This document shows positions 8,253 through 44,712 of a DNA stretch of 64,000 nt, one piece after another (position 1 is the first letter of the stretch; each line of letters begins with the position of its first letter). Location of the stretch: the NCBI RefSeq assembly GCF_041361465.1, contig NZ_JBGKAC010000001.1, positions 2,356,001-2,420,000 of the forward strand, read 5' to 3'. The DNA comes from Halobaculum sp. MBLA0143 (GTDB taxonomy: Archaea; Halobacteriota; Halobacteria; Halobacteriales; Haloferacaceae). A program made the translations under genes and the position numbers. The notes under the pieces were generated by a model. It made no database searches and was not told where the DNA came from. It saw only the letters and a program-made list of their open reading frames with translations.

Positions 8253-10196
8253 ATGAGCGATATCAGCGTGACGCTCCCGGACGGCTCGTCGTTGTCCGTG
8301 TCGGAGGGGGCGTCGCTGGAGGACGTCGCCTACGAGATCGGCCCAGGGTTGGGCGACGACACGGTCGCGGGCAAGATCGACGGCGAACTCGTCGACAAGG
8401 CGACGCCGGTCCACGACGGCGCCGCAGTCGAGATCGTCACCGACCAGTCCGACGAGTACCTCGACGTGTTGCGCCACACCGCCGCCCACGTGTTCGCGCA
8501 GGCACTGCAACGACTCCGCCCGGAGGCCAAACTCGCCATCGGCCCGTCGACGGACGACGGCTTCTACTACGACGTGTCCGGAGTGGATCTGGACGAGTCC
8601 GACCTAGAGGAGATCAGAGCGGAGATGGAGGAGATTCTGGCGGCCGACTACGACCTCGTCCGCGAGGAACGCTCCCGAGAGGCGGCGTTCGAGGCGTACG
8701 ACGACAACCGGTTCAAACGAGAGATCCTGGACGACGAGGCCGCCGGCGAGGATCCCGTCTCCTTCTACGTCCAGGACGGCTGGGAGGACCTCTGTCAGGG
8801 GCCACACGTCGACTCTACCGGGAAGATCGGCGCGGTCGAACTGCTCCAGATCTCGACCGCCTACTGGCGGGGCGACGAGGACAACGAGACGCTGACGCGG
8901 GTGTACGGGACCGCCTTCGAGTCCGAGTCCGACTTGGAGGACTTCCTCGAACGCCGCGAGGAGGCGAAGGAACGCGACCACCGCCGGATCGGCTCCGAGA
9001 TGGACCTCTTCTCCGTCCCGGACCACTCCCCCGGCTGCGTCCACTTCCACCCCGCGGGAATGACGATCCGCCGGGAACTGGAGGAGTACGTCCGCGAGAA
9101 GAACGAGGAACTGGGCTACGAGGAGGTGTGGACGCCGGAGCTCAACAAGGCCGAACTGTGGAAGCCCACCGGTCACTACGACGCCTTCAAGGAGGAAGGC
9201 GAGATGTTCGCCTGGGAGCAGGACGACACGGAGTACGGCCTCAAGCCGATGAACTGCGCGAACCACGCGCACGTGTACGGCGACGAGCGTCACTCCTACC
9301 GTGACCTCCCGCTGCGGTTCGCCGAGTTCGGCACCTGCTACCGCAACGAGCAGTCCGGCGAACTCTCCGGGATGCTCCGCGTGCGCGGATTCACGCAGGA
9401 CGACGGGCACGCGTTCCTCCGCGAGGACCAACTGGAAGAGGAGCTTCTCGCGCACGTCCGCGTGATCGAGGACTTGTACGAGACCTTCGGCTTCGACGTG
9501 GAGTACGTTCTGGAGACGAAGGGTGACGACGCCATCGGCTCCGACGACATCTGGGAGACCGCCACGGACGCGCTCCGGAACGCCCTGGAGACGGAGGACC
9601 TCGACTACGAGGTCGAAGAGGGTGAGGCGGCGTTCTACGGCCCGAAGATCGGCGTCAACGCTATCGACGCGCTGGGGCGGTCGTGGACCATCGGCACCGT
9701 CCAGGTGGACTTCAACATCCCCGAACGGCTCGACCTGGCGTACGTCGGCGAGGACAACGAGGAGCACCGCCCCGTCACCATCCACCGGGCGCTGCTGGGC
9801 TCGTTCGAGCGGTTCATGGGCGTCCTGATCGAGCACTTCAAAGGGAACTTCCCGACCTGGCTCGCCCCCGAACAGGTGCGCGTGCTCCCCATCTCCGACG
9901 ACCAGCTCGACTACGCCGAGTCCGTCGCCGCCGAACTCGACGACGCCGGCTTCCGCGTCGAGGTGGAGGACCGCGACATGACCGTGGGTCGGAAGATTCG
10001 CGCCGGTCACGACGACCGCGTCCCGTACATGCTGATCGTCGGCAGCGACGAGGCCGACGCCGAGACCGTCTCCGTCCGCGACCGCCAGGAGCGCGAGGCC
10101 AACGACGTGGAGCTGAGTGCGTTCCTCGACCACCTCCAGACGGAACGCGAACAGAAGTCGACGGAGCCGTACTTCGTGCCCGTCCAGAAGCACTGA
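8253..10196 (+). CDS. thrS: Threonyl-tRNA synthetase
   Basis: This 647-residue class II synthetase charges tRNA-Thr. The domain order is complete and of bacterial/eukaryotic type: TGS domain (1-60), editing domain (about 65-230) with [11 protein letters not shown] and a later Cys-Gly-Pro-His (CQGPHVD), catalytic core (about 240-530) with motif 2 around [25 protein letters not shown] and motif 3 near [14 protein letters not shown], and the anticodon-binding domain (about 540-640). Zinc ligands appear as Cys in KPMNCANH and later His residues. The ATG at 8253 ([11 protein letters not shown]) is chosen because it begins the TGS domain and has a TATA box; the longer frame from 8187 is not needed. 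It is followed by tRNA-Leu on the other strand. Confidence 0.96.
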
Positions 10197-38051: not shown

Positions 38052-39299
38052 TCACTCGGAGGCGGACGCGCCGACGATCACCGGCCGGTCGGCGAAGACG
38101 ACGACCGTAGCGACGGCGAGGAACGACGCCCCGACTCCGGCCATCGCCACTCGCGGCGACACCACGTCGGCGGCGGCGCCACTCGCGAGCATCACTGGAA
38201 TTCGCAGCAACGCCCCGAGGAACGATTCCGCGCTGTTGATCGTCGCCCGTGTATCCGACGTCATTCGGTCGTTGAGGTACTGTCGGACCCCCGGTTGTGC
38301 GAGCTTCGGCAGTGACATCATCGCCACGACGGCCGGGACAGTCGTCACCGGAGCGAGAACCGGGAGAATCATACACGCCGCGCCGCCGCCGTACGCGGCG
38401 GCGACAGTTCGGCCCAGTCCGAGCCGCGACTGGACGCGCTCCGCGAAGTCCAGCATCACTCCGGAGCCAAGTGTGAACACGGCGTACGTGCCGGCCACGA
38501 GCATCGCACTCGGGACAACCACACCCGACAGTGAGTAGCCCGCCTCCGGGATGGCGTCGAACGTCGTCGGCTGGATGTACTTGCTCGCAGTGTAGATGGC
38601 ACCGCCCGAGAGAACGGACAACAACAGGACCGCCCGAATCGTGGGGTTTGTGAGAAACGTCCGGGTCGCCGTGAGCGCTGCTCGCGGGTCGACGGCGTCG
38701 CCGTCGTCGTCCGTCGCCTCGTTCGTCGGGAGACTCAACACGACCGGCGCGGCGATCAGCGATGTCGCCGCTCCGATGGCGACGGCGTACACCGGCTCGA
38801 TTAGGTACAGCAGTCCGCCGCCGATCATCGTCGCCGTCGTGACGTACTTGACGTACGACCCGATTTGTCCCATCACGGCGGCAAACTGCTCTTGATCGTC
38901 GTGCTCTGCGAGTTTGTCGTAGAACCACGCCGTCCCGGCACCGGACCTGAGTGCCGCCCCAATACCGAAGGCGAGGTACGTTAACACGATGTCGACGGTG
39001 CCGTCGGAGACGACGTAACCGACTGTCCCGAGCCCCAGCCCGACCTGGCTCAAGAACATCGTCCGGCGGCGCCCGAACACGTCGGCAAAGTACCCCGACG
39101 GGAGTTCCAACAGGATCGTAGTGACTGCCATCACGCTCGTCCCGACAGCGATGTCGGTGTAGGTGACGGTGTTGGACACCATGAACACGACGTAGAACGG
39201 GGTGGCAAACCCGGCGTCCGCGAACGCACGGAACACCCCGTACTTCGCCACCGCGCGGCGCGACACGGGGTGGAGCGACCCGAGGCCGCTCTCACTCAT
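38052..39299 (-). CDS. MFS transporter next to the lanthipeptide genes
   Basis: This 415-residue protein has twelve predicted membrane helices. The loop 2-3 motif of the major facilitator superfamily is present as GYFADVFGRRRTMFLSQ (about 73-90), and the middle loop (about 190-215) is acidic. It resembles multidrug or metabolite exporters. The ATG at 39299 overlaps the end of the peptidase-like gene by 8 bases, so the two form an operon divergent to the lanthipeptide synthetase genes. Export of the modified peptide or self-protection is a reasonable inference; typical class II systems use an ABC transporter with a peptidase domain (LanT), which is not seen here. Confidence 0.85.
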   Translation of the reverse strand: MSESGLGSLHPVSRRAVAKYGVFRAFADAGFATPFYVVFMVSNTVTYTDIAVGTSVMAVTTILLELPSGYFADVFGRRRTMFLSQVGLGLGTVGYVVSDGTVDIVLTYLAFGIGAALRSGAGTAWFYDKLAEHDDQEQFAAVMGQIGSYVKYVTTATMIGGGLLYLIEPVYAVAIGAATSLIAAPVVLSLPTNEATDDDGDAVDPRAALTATRTFLTNPTIRAVLLLSVLSGGAIYTASKYIQPTTFDAIPEAGYSLSGVVVPSAMLVAGTYAVFTLGSGVMLDFAERVQSRLGLGRTVAAAYGGGAACMILPVLAPVTTVPAVVAMMSLPKLAQPGVRQYLNDRMTSDTRATINSAESFLGALLRIPVMLASGAAADVVSPRVAMAGVGASFLAVATVVVFADRPVIVGASASE

Positions 39300-41278
39300 C
39301 CGTTCCCTCCGTCCGACGGGTAGTCAGCCACTGTTCAGTGCGTTCGAGCCTGTCGAGAACCGTCTCTGGAGGCGTGTAGACGGAGCCGCCGAGCTCTGGG
39401 TAAGTGTACAGCGTCACATCGGCTCCCTGACGCGCGAGGTGGGTGTACAGCCGCCGTGACTGTTCGGCCGGGTGAGCGTCGTCCGCACCGCCAGCGAACA
39501 GGAGCAGCGGCGCGTCGATCCGGTCGGCGTCCCACAGCGGCGACTTTCGCCGTGACGGCACTGGCTCCACCCAAGGCGCGATCACTGGGCGCCGCCAGTC
39601 GTCATCTCCGGAGACGGCGCTCGTGTAGTCGTAGGTCCCGTGTTTGGCGATAGCGCCGGCGAGGAGATCCGTCTCGGCCAGTAGCCCGACGACGCAGTCG
39701 GCGCCGTAGAACATCCCACAGCCGAACACGTTCTCGGGGTCCAGTGGCGGTGCGTCGAGCACTTGCCCCAACGCCGGCGGTGAGGTCGGCGACGGCGGCG
39801 TCGAGATACTTCTCTCGACCGGCGGCGCAGAAGTCGGCGCCGTACGAGCGACTACCCCGGAAGTTCAGCTTCAGGACGGCGTACCCTCGGTCGAGCAGAA
39901 ACTGGTGCCGGAACCGGAAGCGGGGAGCGTCGACGGAGTCCATCTCCCGGTGAACGTCGACCACAGAGGGGACGCTGGCTGCCGGGGCATCGTCGAAGCC
40001 TGGTGGGACGCAGTAGAATCCCTCGACTGTGGTGCCGTCGTCCGTCTCCGTCCGGAGCTGTCTGGTGTCGATCTCACCCTCCGGGTGGATCGTCGCGTTC
40101 AGCGTGTGGCGAGTGGTCCGCGACGCGACGGCCTGGCGCTGTGAGTCGAGGTGAAGTCGGACGACACGACTCGCCGTCGGGTGGATCGTCGCCGTCTCGA
40201 TCCGGCCAGCCGCTCGGTCGACATCGAACGGGCGGTGTCTCCCGGACCACTTGACCGACTCTGGCCACGCCGGCTCGTACAGCGGGGAGCAGTCGCCGTC
40301 GATTTCGAGCGCGTACAACACGCCGCTTCCCGCATCGAGGACGCATCCGACGACTGTGTCGGAGTCCAGCCAGTCGACGTAGTGGATACAACGGTCAAGA
40401 CCCGCCGACAGTGACCGCACCTGGTCGTCTTTGGAACTGACGACACACGCCTCGTGTGGGGTCGCCAACTCGCGTTGGTCGTACTGCACGAATGCAATCC
40501 GGTCGCCGTCCGGCGACCACTCCGGGTCGGTACAGGCGTGCTCCGAGTCGGTGTGATTGCGTCGGTTGGAGCCGTCTGGTTCGACGCTGAACACGTCGAA
40601 CCCAGCCGGACTACCCCCCTGGTTGGCGACGAACGCGATCCGCCCGTTCGGTCCCCACGCCGGCTTCATCCGGTGGAGCCACTGGCGGCCGTATGTCGAA
40701 CGACTCCACGTCCCCTCGACGTGCTGGTGGTCACCCATCTCGTTTACCACGACCAACGACCGCTCGAACGACGCTGTCTCCTCGTCGTCCGGACGAGAGA
40801 CTCGCGGGCGCCGGGCAGGTGGAAGGCGGTCGTCGTTGCTTCTCCCCTCGTCGACCGGCCGTCTGACGGCGAGAACGGCCCGGCTCCCATCTGGACTCCA
40901 GTCGAATCCCTCGACTCGGTTCGGGCACGTCGACAGCTGGCGCGCGTCGCCGCCGGCGAGGTCGTAGAGCCACAGGTCCGTCGTCTCCGTCGCCTGGTCG
41001 GCCGTCTCCGGGTGACCGGTGACAGCCGGGTCTGGCGGACGACAGGAGCAGATGCCCAACTGCTGCCGCCCCGGTCGCCACCGTGGGTGACGGCTCTGCC
41101 CGATACGGGTCAGCCGACGCCACTCCCCGTCAGAGTCGATAATGAAAATATCGTGGCTCTCTCCTCCTGGGACCGGCGACCGGACGTACACTGCCGTCGT
41201 CGACGCAACCGACGACGAGCGAACGCTGTACGGCAACTGTTTGTCGTAGTAGTCGGTACTCTCGACGGTCGTGTTCAC
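39292..41278 (-). pseudogene. S9-type (prolyl oligopeptidase-like) peptidase homologue, frameshifted, catalytic residues lost
   Basis: From GTG 41278 the frame encodes an N-terminal seven-bladed propeller (about 1-390, repeats such as DPEWSPDGDRIAFVQYD) and the start of an alpha/beta-hydrolase domain (GYAVLKLNFRGSRSYGADF). A single extra base near 39775-39780 (GACCTCACCGCCGGCGTTGG) shifts the frame; removing one G restores LTAALGQVLDAPPLDPENV and gives about 661 residues to the stop at 39292. In the restored domain the nucleophile elbow reads GCGMFYGAD where the family has GxSxGG, and the His region reads ELGGSVY where EGH is expected; only the acid (GGADDAHP) remains. So even without the frameshift it is unlikely to be a peptidase. 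TTTAAA at 41302-41307 is its TATA box. Confidence 0.72.
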
Positions 41279-41402: not shown

Positions 41403-41531
41403 ATGTCCGAACTCGACCGAAGCGCCGTCGAGGCACAGTACAATTACGACTACGTCGACCCGGACGAGGGGACGACACTGCCGGCTGACGACACGACATC
41501 CGGTGGGTGTAGCGGACCGAATTCCTTCTGA
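41403..41531 (+). CDS. Putative class II lanthipeptide precursor (LanA)
   Basis: This 42-residue peptide is encoded 26 bases before the dehydratase gene. It has an acidic leader of about 28-35 residues (MSELDRSAVEAQYNYDYVD...) and a C-terminal region rich in modifiable residues, TTSGGCSGPNSF (positions 31-42), with Thr31, Thr32, Ser33, Ser37, Ser41 and a single Cys36. A Gly-Gly pair (34-35) sits directly before the Cys; in class II leaders a double-glycine often marks the cleavage site. One cysteine allows one lanthionine ring. The gene has its own TATA box. The role is inferred from size, composition and position; it matches no family I can name. Confidence 0.7.
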   Translation: MSELDRSAVEAQYNYDYVDPDEGTTLPADDTTSGGCSGPNSF

Positions 41532-41557
41532 GCGACCGTCAAACGCCACCGACTTCG

Positions 41558-43519
41558 ATGGAAGTGTTCACGCGGAGCCAGCGACGACGGATTCTCGCAG
41601 GGAGTCGACTTCTCCACGACGCAGTCCCGGTGACTGAGGCGTCCGAGGCGGTCGAGCCGCCGGACAGTGACGGTGCGACAGCCGGCGAGCGGTTCGCGGC
41701 GCTGTACCGAGAGAGCGAGTTCGGCGACCTGACACGGCGGTCGCGGGTCGCCGGTCTCGACCCGGAGACGGTCGACGCGCGCGCCACCGCCGAGTCAGCA
41801 GCAGACCCGCCTGACGAGCGGCTGACTGAGCCGCCGGAGTGGTTCACTCATCTCTGCTGGCTGGCCGAGACCCTGGTGTCAGTCGACCCACGCGAGACTA
41901 TCCCGGACGGCTGGGGAGAGATCCCGTTCGCCAACTTTCTCGTCCCAGTCGTTGAGCTCGCACAGGCGGAACTCGCGTCTTGGCTCCCCACGGATCGGGT
42001 CGCCGACGGGGCCTTGGAGCCGGCGGCACGCTGGCTGTGTCACCGTCTGTCCGAGACTGTCGCACAGCCGTTGCACGTCGAGTTCCGGCTGTTCCGGGAC
42101 GGCGAGCAGTCGGCGGACGACTCGACGACGGCATACGAGGCGTTCGTCGCGTCGCTCCACGACGGAGGGTTCACCGACTTCTGTGCTCGGTACCCGTTCG
42201 CCGCACGCCGGCTCGCTGTCACCGCCGACCGGTGGCGAACGGCGACGGCGACGCTGATCGAACGGCTCCGCGGGGACTGGTCGGCGTTGCGCGACCGGTT
42301 CGACGCGACCTTCGACACGCTGGAGGCCGCCATCCCGGGACGTGGGGATGTCCACGACGGGGGACAGACGGTCACGGAACTCCGGTTCGACAACGGACAT
42401 CTCTACTACAAGCCGCGTCCGGTCGGTCCCGACCGCCTGTACGCGGAGATCGTCGACCTGCTCGAGGGTGACTGCCCCGTCGAACTCACAGCGCCGATCG
42501 TACTACCGAGGGACGGCTACGGCTGGGTCGCAGCCGTCAGGACGGCCGCGCTGGACGGTCGCGACCCGGCCACGTACTACGAGCGTGTCGGAGCCGTCCT
42601 CTGTGTCTACTACGTATTCAACGGGTCTGATCTCCACTTCGAGAACCTGCTCGCCGCCGGGGATGTCCCGATCCCAGTGGACACCGAGACGCTGCTCACG
42701 CGGTCACGGGTTCCCCGGCTGCTCCCGAACGGACGGGCGGACCAGCGTGTGGTCAAGTCCGCAGTCGAGGAGTCCGTGTTCCGGACCACACTGCTCCCGT
42801 TCGAGACGGACATCGAGAGTCGGGTTCCAGAGACCGCCGGTGACGACATCTCCGGGTTAACTGCCGTCGGAGAGATGGAGAGTCGTCAGCTGACCCCCGA
42901 CTGGCGCCACGTCAACACCGACCGAATGTCGTTCGAACTGACCCCAGGGCGCTATCGCTCCACCGGGAGCTACCCACACGAGAACGGCGAACCGGTACGG
43001 CCGGAAGGGTACGCAGATGCTGTCGCCGACGGATTCCGGGCAGCGTACGACACCCTGTCGCGGCTCGATCCGGATCGGGTCACGCAGGTGCTATCGTCGC
43101 CACTAGACGCCGTCGAGTCCCGATATCTGTTCCGCAACACGAGCGGCTACTTGGCCGCGCTGCGCCAGCTCCGGACCCCCCAGTGTGGACGCAGCGGTGT
43201 CGAGGCTGGGTTGAAGCTCGAACGGCTCGTCCCAGAGCTACAGATTTTCGACGAGGAGACACAGCAGTCTATCGAGCCGATTCTCGACGCCGAGCGAACC
43301 GCGCTCCGGGACGGTGACGTCCCGCGGTTCGGAATCGACGGCCGGGATCTCACCTTCCGCGGAGAGACGCTCCTGGCGGGGTTCTTCGAACGATCACACG
43401 AGTGCATCGTCCGCGATAGGCTCGAGTCGTTGTCGCCGGCTGATCGCCGGCAGCAGTCGGGCTACATCACTGCGTCGTTGGCCGCACGGCGCGGACCGTC
43501 CGACGGTGGGGAGGAATGA
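41558..43519 (+). CDS. Class II lanthipeptide dehydratase, the N-terminal half of a split LanM
   Basis: This 653-residue protein corresponds to the dehydratase (DUF4135) part of LanM, which phosphorylates Ser/Thr of the precursor and eliminates phosphate to give Dha/Dhb. The lipid-kinase-like active site is complete: Lys285 in YYKPR, the D-x-H-x-x-N motif at Asp358-His360-Asn363 (GSDLHFENLLAAGD), Asp375 and Glu377 in PVDTETLL. Elimination-type residues are seen at Arg409-Thr410 (VFRTTLLP) and Arg526 (YLFRNTSGYL). The cyclase domain that normally follows in the same chain is encoded separately by the next gene, overlapping by 4 bases (ATGA). It acts in the cytosol on the peptide from 41403. 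Confidence 0.92.
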   Translation: MEVFTRSQRRRILAGSRLLHDAVPVTEASEAVEPPDSDGATAGERFAALYRESEFGDLTRRSRVAGLDPETVDARATAESAADPPDERLTEPPEWFTHLCWLAETLVSVDPRETIPDGWGEIPFANFLVPVVELAQAELASWLPTDRVADGALEPAARWLCHRLSETVAQPLHVEFRLFRDGEQSADDSTTAYEAFVASLHDGGFTDFCARYPFAARRLAVTADRWRTATATLIERLRGDWSALRDRFDATFDTLEAAIPGRGDVHDGGQTVTELRFDNGHLYYKPRPVGPDRLYAEIVDLLEGDCPVELTAPIVLPRDGYGWVAAVRTAALDGRDPATYYERVGAVLCVYYVFNGSDLHFENLLAAGDVPIPVDTETLLTRSRVPRLLPNGRADQRVVKSAVEESVFRTTLLPFETDIESRVPETAGDDISGLTAVGEMESRQLTPDWRHVNTDRMSFELTPGRYRSTGSYPHENGEPVRPEGYADAVADGFRAAYDTLSRLDPDRVTQVLSSPLDAVESRYLFRNTSGYLAALRQLRTPQCGRSGVEAGLKLERLVPELQIFDEETQQSIEPILDAERTALRDGDVPRFGIDGRDLTFRGETLLAGFFERSHECIVRDRLESLSPADRRQQSGYITASLAARRGPSDGGEE

Positions 43520-44712
43520 CGAGCGTGTCGCGACGAAGACGGGCGCTCGCGTGGATCGACGACCGACTCCGAGCCGCCGCCGTCAACCACGGGACGGACG
43601 CCGTCGGGTGGGTCTCGCTCGACACCAGGCACGAGGGATCGCTGACGGTCGCCGGGGGCCGGTCGTTGTACGGCGGGCAACTCGGAATCGCACTGTACCT
43701 CGCGGTCCGTGCGCGTGTCGGTGAGATGGAGAGAGACGACGGCAATCCGGGAGCACTCGCGCGGCGTGCGGTCTCGCCGTGGCTCTCGTGTGACGTGAGC
43801 GAGATCGAAACAAGACACACCGGCGGGACGAACGGCATCGGTGCGCTTGTATACGGGTTCACGCGCCTCGCCGAGGAGACAGGCGACGAGCGGTACGCCG
43901 ACCGGGCGAGCGAAATCATCGATGTCACCACTGAGCGGTTTATACGTGCCGACGATCGCCACGGTGTGGTGTACGGCAACGCCGGGCTGATCCTCGCGCT
44001 GACAGCACACTACACCCGACAAGAGGATGATCGTGCCGTGGCGCTGGCTCGGGTCGCTGGCGACCACCTTCTGGAGACGGCAACAGAACGAGCCGACGGG
44101 CTGGCGTGGGAGACGGACGGGGTCGCGGCGGCGGGGTTCGCCCACGGGAGCGCTGGCGTCGGGTACGCCCTCGCCCGGCTGGCCGCCGCGACCGGCGACC
44201 GGAGGTACGCCGAGGCGGCCGCAGACGCACTGCTGTTTGAGGCGAGCCGGTTCGACGACGAGACAGTACAGTGGGCTTCCGGTCCGAGCCACAGTCGTCA
44301 CGGCGTCGGAGAGGGATGGTGTTGGGGGCGACCGGGCCACGCGCTCGCCCGGGTCGCGGCCGCGGACCTCGTCGAGACGCTGCCGAACCGGGTTGTCGAC
44401 CGCGGCCGGCGAGGCGTCGCCGCCGTCGGCACGACCGACTACGACAACGACACACTGTGTCACGGAACGTTCGGGGACGTTGCCGTGTTGACGGCCGCGA
44501 GCCACGCCCGGACGGCGCCGCTCGACCGGGCGCGACGACTCACATCGACCGCACTGGCCCAGTGGCGCCAGCGTGGTCGGTTCCGTCTCGCCGAGACCGC
44601 CCACGTTCCCGGCGGTCGCCCCTCGTTGTTCCGTGGGCTTGCCGGAATTGGCCACACGTTGTGTCGTCTTCAGGCTCCCGACACCGTCCCGTCTGTTCTC
44701 CTCCTAGAGTGA
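43516..44712 (+). CDS. LanC-like lanthionine cyclase, the C-terminal half of a split LanM
   Basis: This 398-residue alpha/alpha-barrel protein corresponds to the cyclase domain of LanM; it joins Cys thiols to Dha/Dhb to form lanthionine rings. The zinc ligands are intact: Cys269 in WCWG and Cys315-His316 in LCHG. The GFAHGSAGVGYAL segment (His210) is the conserved catalytic-base region, and LYGGQLGIALYLA (51-63) is the typical opening of the domain. The ATG lies in the stop codon of the dehydratase gene, so equal amounts of both are made. No sign of decay. It is convergent with the HPP-Usp gene, 17 bases away. Confidence 0.92.
   Translation: MTSVSRRRRALAWIDDRLRAAAVNHGTDAVGWVSLDTRHEGSLTVAGGRSLYGGQLGIALYLAVRARVGEMERDDGNPGALARRAVSPWLSCDVSEIETRHTGGTNGIGALVYGFTRLAEETGDERYADRASEIIDVTTERFIRADDRHGVVYGNAGLILALTAHYTRQEDDRAVALARVAGDHLLETATERADGLAWETDGVAAAGFAHGSAGVGYALARLAAATGDRRYAEAAADALLFEASRFDDETVQWASGPSHSRHGVGEGWCWGRPGHALARVAAADLVETLPNRVVDRGRRGVAAVGTTDYDNDTLCHGTFGDVAVLTAASHARTAPLDRARRLTSTALAQWRQRGRFRLAETAHVPGGRPSLFRGLAGIGHTLCRLQAPDTVPSVLLLE

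Follow-up and report, generated by a model that had tools for sequence, protein, structure and literature searches.

Can the two activities of a class II lanthipeptide synthetase, an enzyme described as a single bifunctional chain (e.g. PMC10027976, PMC9953058), be divided in nature between two proteins? The question is raised by a locus of Halobaculum sp. MBLA0143 that lies within the window, by which we mean the whole stretch of 64,000 nucleotides analysed here (contig NZ_JBGKAC010000001.1, positions 2,356,001 to 2,420,000 of the forward strand). The original prediction for this locus was a precursor-like gene followed by a LanM that is naturally split into a dehydratase gene and a cyclase gene. 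The predicted open reading frames (ORFs) of precursor, dehydratase and cyclase, and the ATGA overlap between the latter two, were found exactly where they had been placed, and the observation of a locus with a precursor, a DUF4135 dehydratase and a LanC-like cyclase is confirmed. The features of the locus and its neighbourhood are given below in window coordinates, with L047 and L048 denoting two related loci that are introduced further on.

41403..41531, plus strand: lanA-like precursor of 42 aa, sequence MSELDRSAVEAQYNYDYVDPDEGTTLPADDTTSGGCSGPNSF
41558..43519, plus strand: LanM dehydratase subunit of 653 aa with the kinase-like site (Pfam DUF4135, E 2.1e-84)
43516..44712, plus strand: LanM cyclase subunit of 398 aa (best Pfam match LANC_like, E 1.2e-38)
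43516..43519, plus strand: ATGA overlap, the cyclase start codon lying over the dehydratase stop codon (read directly)
38052..39299, minus strand: MFS transporter, putative peptide exporter (Pfam MFS_1, E 3e-16)
39292..41278, minus strand: S9 prolyl-oligopeptidase-like protein, frame interrupted near 39770 (homologues at L047 and L048)

The dehydratase matches positions 2–523 of the TIGR03897 LanM model (932 positions) and the cyclase positions 556–932, which places the break between the two domains; TIGR03897 is the sole NCBIfam match of the dehydratase, and DUF4135 is its sole Pfam match. In AlphaFold models (pLDDT of 82.5 for the dehydratase and 88 for the cyclase), the last eight residues of the dehydratase (646–653) are predicted to be disordered and a confident helix starts the cyclase at residue 3, so the break would fall between folded domains. 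The best PDB matches were LicM2 and CylM for the dehydratase model, and LicM2 and LanC-like proteins for the cyclase model. The kinase-like site of the dehydratase, which had been claimed to be complete, proved to be so by alignment to CylM (PDB 5dzt), where K285, D358, H360, N363, D375 and E377 correspond to K274, D347, H349, N352, D364 and E366. The same alignment pairs D264, H266, R522 and T528 with the phosphate-elimination residues D252, H254, R506 and T512 of CylM, and these four residues are kept across 23 relatives. CylM mutants have been reported for all of the mapped kinase and elimination residues except E366 (eLife 2015, PMC4550811). The three zinc ligands that had been named for the cyclase (C269, C315 and H316) are likewise present and conserved; at position 316 the split proteins have His, where most of the aligned bacterial relatives have Cys.

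Profile searches with Pfam and NCBIfam found the glutamylation and elimination domains of LanB to be absent from the dehydratase; the kinase and lyase domains of classes III and IV (LanKC, LanL) are absent from both proteins, and the cyclase scores far under the class III and IV cut-offs. Among the features by which a LanM is defined, the DUF4135 site, the elimination residues, the zinc ligands and an adjoining precursor whose core has Cys and Ser/Thr are all present, while the two activities are encoded by two ORFs instead of being on one polypeptide.

The small gene in front of the dehydratase encodes a peptide with one Cys (C36), for which T31, T32 and S33 before it and S37 and S41 after it are possible ring partners. 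Its description as precursor-like gains support from the nearest split locus, L047, whose precursor (at 8385) is homologous (local score of 62, z ~10, with 0 of 500 shuffles reaching this score), and the precursor start relative to the dehydratase is −155 in the window locus and −165 in L047. The precursors of the other split loci resemble the window precursor weakly (L176 most closely, 3 of 500 shuffles). In eight of the nine split loci described below, the dehydratase gene is preceded by short ORFs that contain Cys and have related leaders, and the split-locus precursors have Cys next to Ser/Thr; upstream of the dehydratase of L048, no precursor was found. In a motif search, a leader motif was found only at split loci, but we rejected it as split-specific and claim no such leader, because short ORFs upstream of the single-chain LanMs at L055 and L060 carry similar leaders. 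The published motif Kx(Y/F)(D/E)xx(F/Y) was matched by none of the short Cys-bearing ORFs in any locus tested.

A search of ~530 Halobacteria genomes yielded 67 haloarchaeal DUF4135 loci, a number that is a lower bound as the class search scored only some candidates per genome. Of these, 55 are single-chain and nine are split, while two have no cyclase nearby and one is frame-broken. The split loci belong to six haloarchaeal genomes of four families: two are in the host genome (the window locus and L043), three (L046, L047 and L048) are all in G345, a MAG of the host's genus, one (L050) is in Halopiger djelfimassiliensis, and the remaining ones are L174 (G467), L175 (G459) and L176 (G478). The host genome has seven DUF4135 genes, five of them single-chain (open frames of 957–1093 aa) and two split (in the window and at C2:222982, frames of ~660 aa). 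In all nine split loci the cyclase is the next gene after the dehydratase. On the proposed count of split against fused forms in haloarchaea (nine against 55 of the 67 loci), the expectation that a two-protein form is unusual holds insofar as single-chain forms are commoner; however, the split form is not unique to the host and recurs in what appears to be a lineage of single origin.

Taken by itself, the window locus might also be one LanM gene recently broken by a frameshift (i.e. a pseudogene), or the junction might contain an error of sequencing or assembly. In the window, the open frame of the cyclase reaches back 75 bases before the stop codon of the dehydratase, which means that gain or loss of one base could fuse the two, and the adjoining S9-like gene is itself frameshifted. 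Against such a broken gene stand the eight other loci, which come from independent assemblies and divide at the same point between the domains but through other junctions. The ATGA junction occurs in the window locus, L047, L050 and L174; in L048, L046 and L175 the last base of the stop is the first base of the start (TGATG/TAATG; the L175 cyclase start was taken as the ATG at offset 0, not the upstream GTG); and in L043 and L176 a TAA is followed by an in-frame ATG seven bases on. Cyclase start offsets across the nine loci thus run from a 4-base overlap to +7, and since the junctions differ in offset, sequence and frame relation, one sequencing error cannot explain the split. In L050, no more than 6 bases of open cyclase frame precede the stop, and the cyclases of L043 and L176 are in the same frame behind the TAA. 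Two outcomes had been named at the outset as fatal to a natural split, and neither was encountered: an error near 43516 that joins the frames is contradicted by the recurrence of the split at this border through differing junctions, and close homologues are not all single-chain, as the window dehydratase has split proteins as its nearest relatives.

In phylogenetic analysis, the split loci come out as one lineage. In a careful tree of 40 rows, all nine dehydratases of split loci group in a single clade (97/93, ultrafast bootstrap/SH-aLRT), to which none of 21 single-chain haloarchaeal LanMs belongs; a dehydratase tree of 79 rows has a branch that sets the nine off from all other rows (SH-aLRT 95), and with dehydratase and cyclase joined the split group reaches an SH-aLRT of 100. 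The cyclase alone is weaker, giving one split group with a support of 67 in a 77-row tree and requiring two changes for the split rows in a 35-row quick tree, and for this reason we base the claim of a single origin on the dehydratase and the combined data. The dehydratase and cyclase topologies mostly agree, and three tree rows are long-branched, L048 most of all. For the closest pair (L043/L046), dN/dS is ~0.18 in the dehydratase and ~0.21 in the cyclase, and both halves are therefore under purifying selection in that pair, while for more distant pairs dN/dS is saturated and uninformative; the enzymes of the window and L047 are 38 and 36 percent identical. The intact catalytic residues, the recurrence, the single clade and the selection in L043/L046 together support the claim that the split is functional, and nine independent junctions within one clade leave a pseudogene or sequencing error with next to no likelihood.

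A working enzyme of one chain could also be produced from two genes if programmed frameshifting or stop readthrough joined the frames. In favour of such joining is the arrangement at the junctions, where a single in-frame TAA separates the genes in L043 and L176 and the frames overlap elsewhere. By eye, however, no slippery sequence is common to the junctions, which vary in their overlap, their stop codon and the relation of the frames, and in every case a start codon for the cyclase is present at −4 to +7 relative to the stop. We thus regard frame joining as highly improbable.

Outside haloarchaea, ~45 full-length cyanobacterial DUF4135 matches were all single-chain, with open frames of at least 1041 aa, and in samples of Actinomycetota and Bacillota the forms were single-chain apart from a few that were short or broken and had no LanC gene beside them. 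A split at the domain border was absent among the bacterial loci fetched by similarity, in which one Nostoc gene (L119) has its break within the dehydratase itself and a few loci are without a cyclase nearby, and no split LanM was found on the viral contigs searched. A Deinococcus LanC-family match was considered as a split LanM and rejected, being an 800-aa protein beside a phosphotransferase gene. As a separate observation, an Actinomycetota locus (L191, 5519–7069) encodes a stand-alone DUF4135 protein of 516 aa, and the 14 kb retrieved there contain no match to LanC. Among the sampled genomes, in which bacteria are represented by samples only, the split form has so far been confined to haloarchaea. 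Because the sampled bacterial relatives are nearly all single-chain, the most parsimonious account is that a LanM lineage of haloarchaea underwent a single early fission, with the trees fixing neither the root nor an exact sister group.

How would the two proteins then work? From the sequences we infer complex formation, activity, substrate, ring number and export. The ATGA overlap would couple translation of the two genes and provide the subunits in roughly matched amounts. Using ATP, the larger subunit (653 aa) would transfer phosphate to Ser/Thr of the precursor and then eliminate it to give Dha/Dhb, after which the smaller, zinc-dependent subunit (398 aa) would close one (methyl)lanthionine ring by adding Cys36 to a dehydro residue. 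The peptide would be exported, perhaps through the MFS transporter encoded nearby, and would be cut by a protease. Physical separation is compatible with this chemistry because dehydratase domains cut from CylM, HalM2 and NukM suffice for dehydration (PMC10676384). Counting against a two-subunit enzyme are the halves of CcaM, which do not function in trans when separated (PMC10676384), the single Cys of the window precursor, the frameshift in the S9-like neighbour, and the five single-chain DUF4135 proteins of the host, which might act on the same peptide. The dehydratase and cyclase could instead be independent, for example with the dehydratase producing uncyclised dehydropeptides and the cyclase serving another system, and haloarchaeal orphan DUF4135 proteins without LanC do exist (L049, L051). 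This independence is distinctly unlikely given that each of the nine split dehydratases is directly followed by a cyclase gene, that the trees of the two proteins are mostly alike, and that the precursors carry Cys beside Ser/Thr. We consider it very probable that the two halves act together as a two-subunit class II lanthipeptide synthetase on the 42-aa precursor.

Compared to known systems, the window enzyme resembles class II LanM (CylM, LicM2; TIGR03897) in its kinase and elimination residues, LanC zinc ligands and adjoining short precursor, and differs from CylM and LicM2 in being two polypeptides from overlapping genes and not one chain; identity to LicM2 over the models is 22 percent for the dehydratase and 20 percent for the cyclase. 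With archalan and its relatives (PMC10105419, PMC12144867) it shares a haloarchaeal host and DUF4135 plus LanC chemistry, whereas LanM in these surveys is one protein with a LanC-like domain, and we found split forms mentioned in neither; the list of one survey covered earlier archaeal LanMs except for a few truncated ones (PMC10105419). Dehydratase and cyclase are also separate proteins in class I (LanB and LanC), but the window dehydratase is a kinase-like DUF4135 protein and not a glutamyl-tRNA-dependent LanB. The split LanB of pinensin and thiopeptides (PMC7268733) is similarly a RiPP dehydratase system divided in two at a domain border, although it belongs to another enzyme family and its split parts glutamylation from elimination, not dehydration from cyclisation. 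No natural split LanM was found in the open-licence literature searched, and an earlier description elsewhere is possible.

The comparisons made here support a naturally two-protein class II synthetase that forms one old lineage in haloarchaea and is a real design, not a broken gene. Such a lineage would offer free-standing dehydratase and cyclase partners, with which one could directly ask if ordered dehydration and cyclisation require the two domains to be covalently joined, and in what way the subunits share the leader. Engineered halves have given mixed answers, in that the CylM dehydratase works alone and the CcaM halves do not work in trans (PMC10676384). In genome mining, filters based on LanM length may discard split loci as truncated.

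The genes around the split loci differ between two subgroups. In the window subgroup (window, L047 and L048), an S9 prolyl-oligopeptidase-like protein is found nearby in three of three loci, with the homologues at L047 4907–7063 and L048 5257–7200 lacking the catalytic Ser and His; in an alignment read by eye, the Ser nucleophile and the His of the triad are replaced in all three copies. This protein was not seen near the single-chain LanM loci examined. Parts of the window locus may be decaying, since the window copy of the S9-like gene is frameshifted near 39770. An MFS gene is common to the window and L047 (43 percent identical), the L047 copy being directly upstream of lanA. It is conceivable, if doubtful, that the window-type subgroup of a distinct two-subunit class II machine has added a catalytically dead S9 peptidase-like beta-propeller, e.g. 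for peptide binding or self-protection. In the other split subgroup, DUF6895 and ABC-transporter genes occur in place of the S9-like and MFS genes.

DUF6895 proteins are encoded near the split LanM in L043, L046, L050, L174 and L175, and a relative is encoded near the orphan dehydratase of L051. The DUF4135 orphans without a nearby LanC gene lie at L049 7467–9551, on a plasmid of Actinarchaeum halophilum, and at L051 8298–10304. In both orphans the His of the DxHxxN motif is replaced, and the one at L049 is located near a transposase gene.
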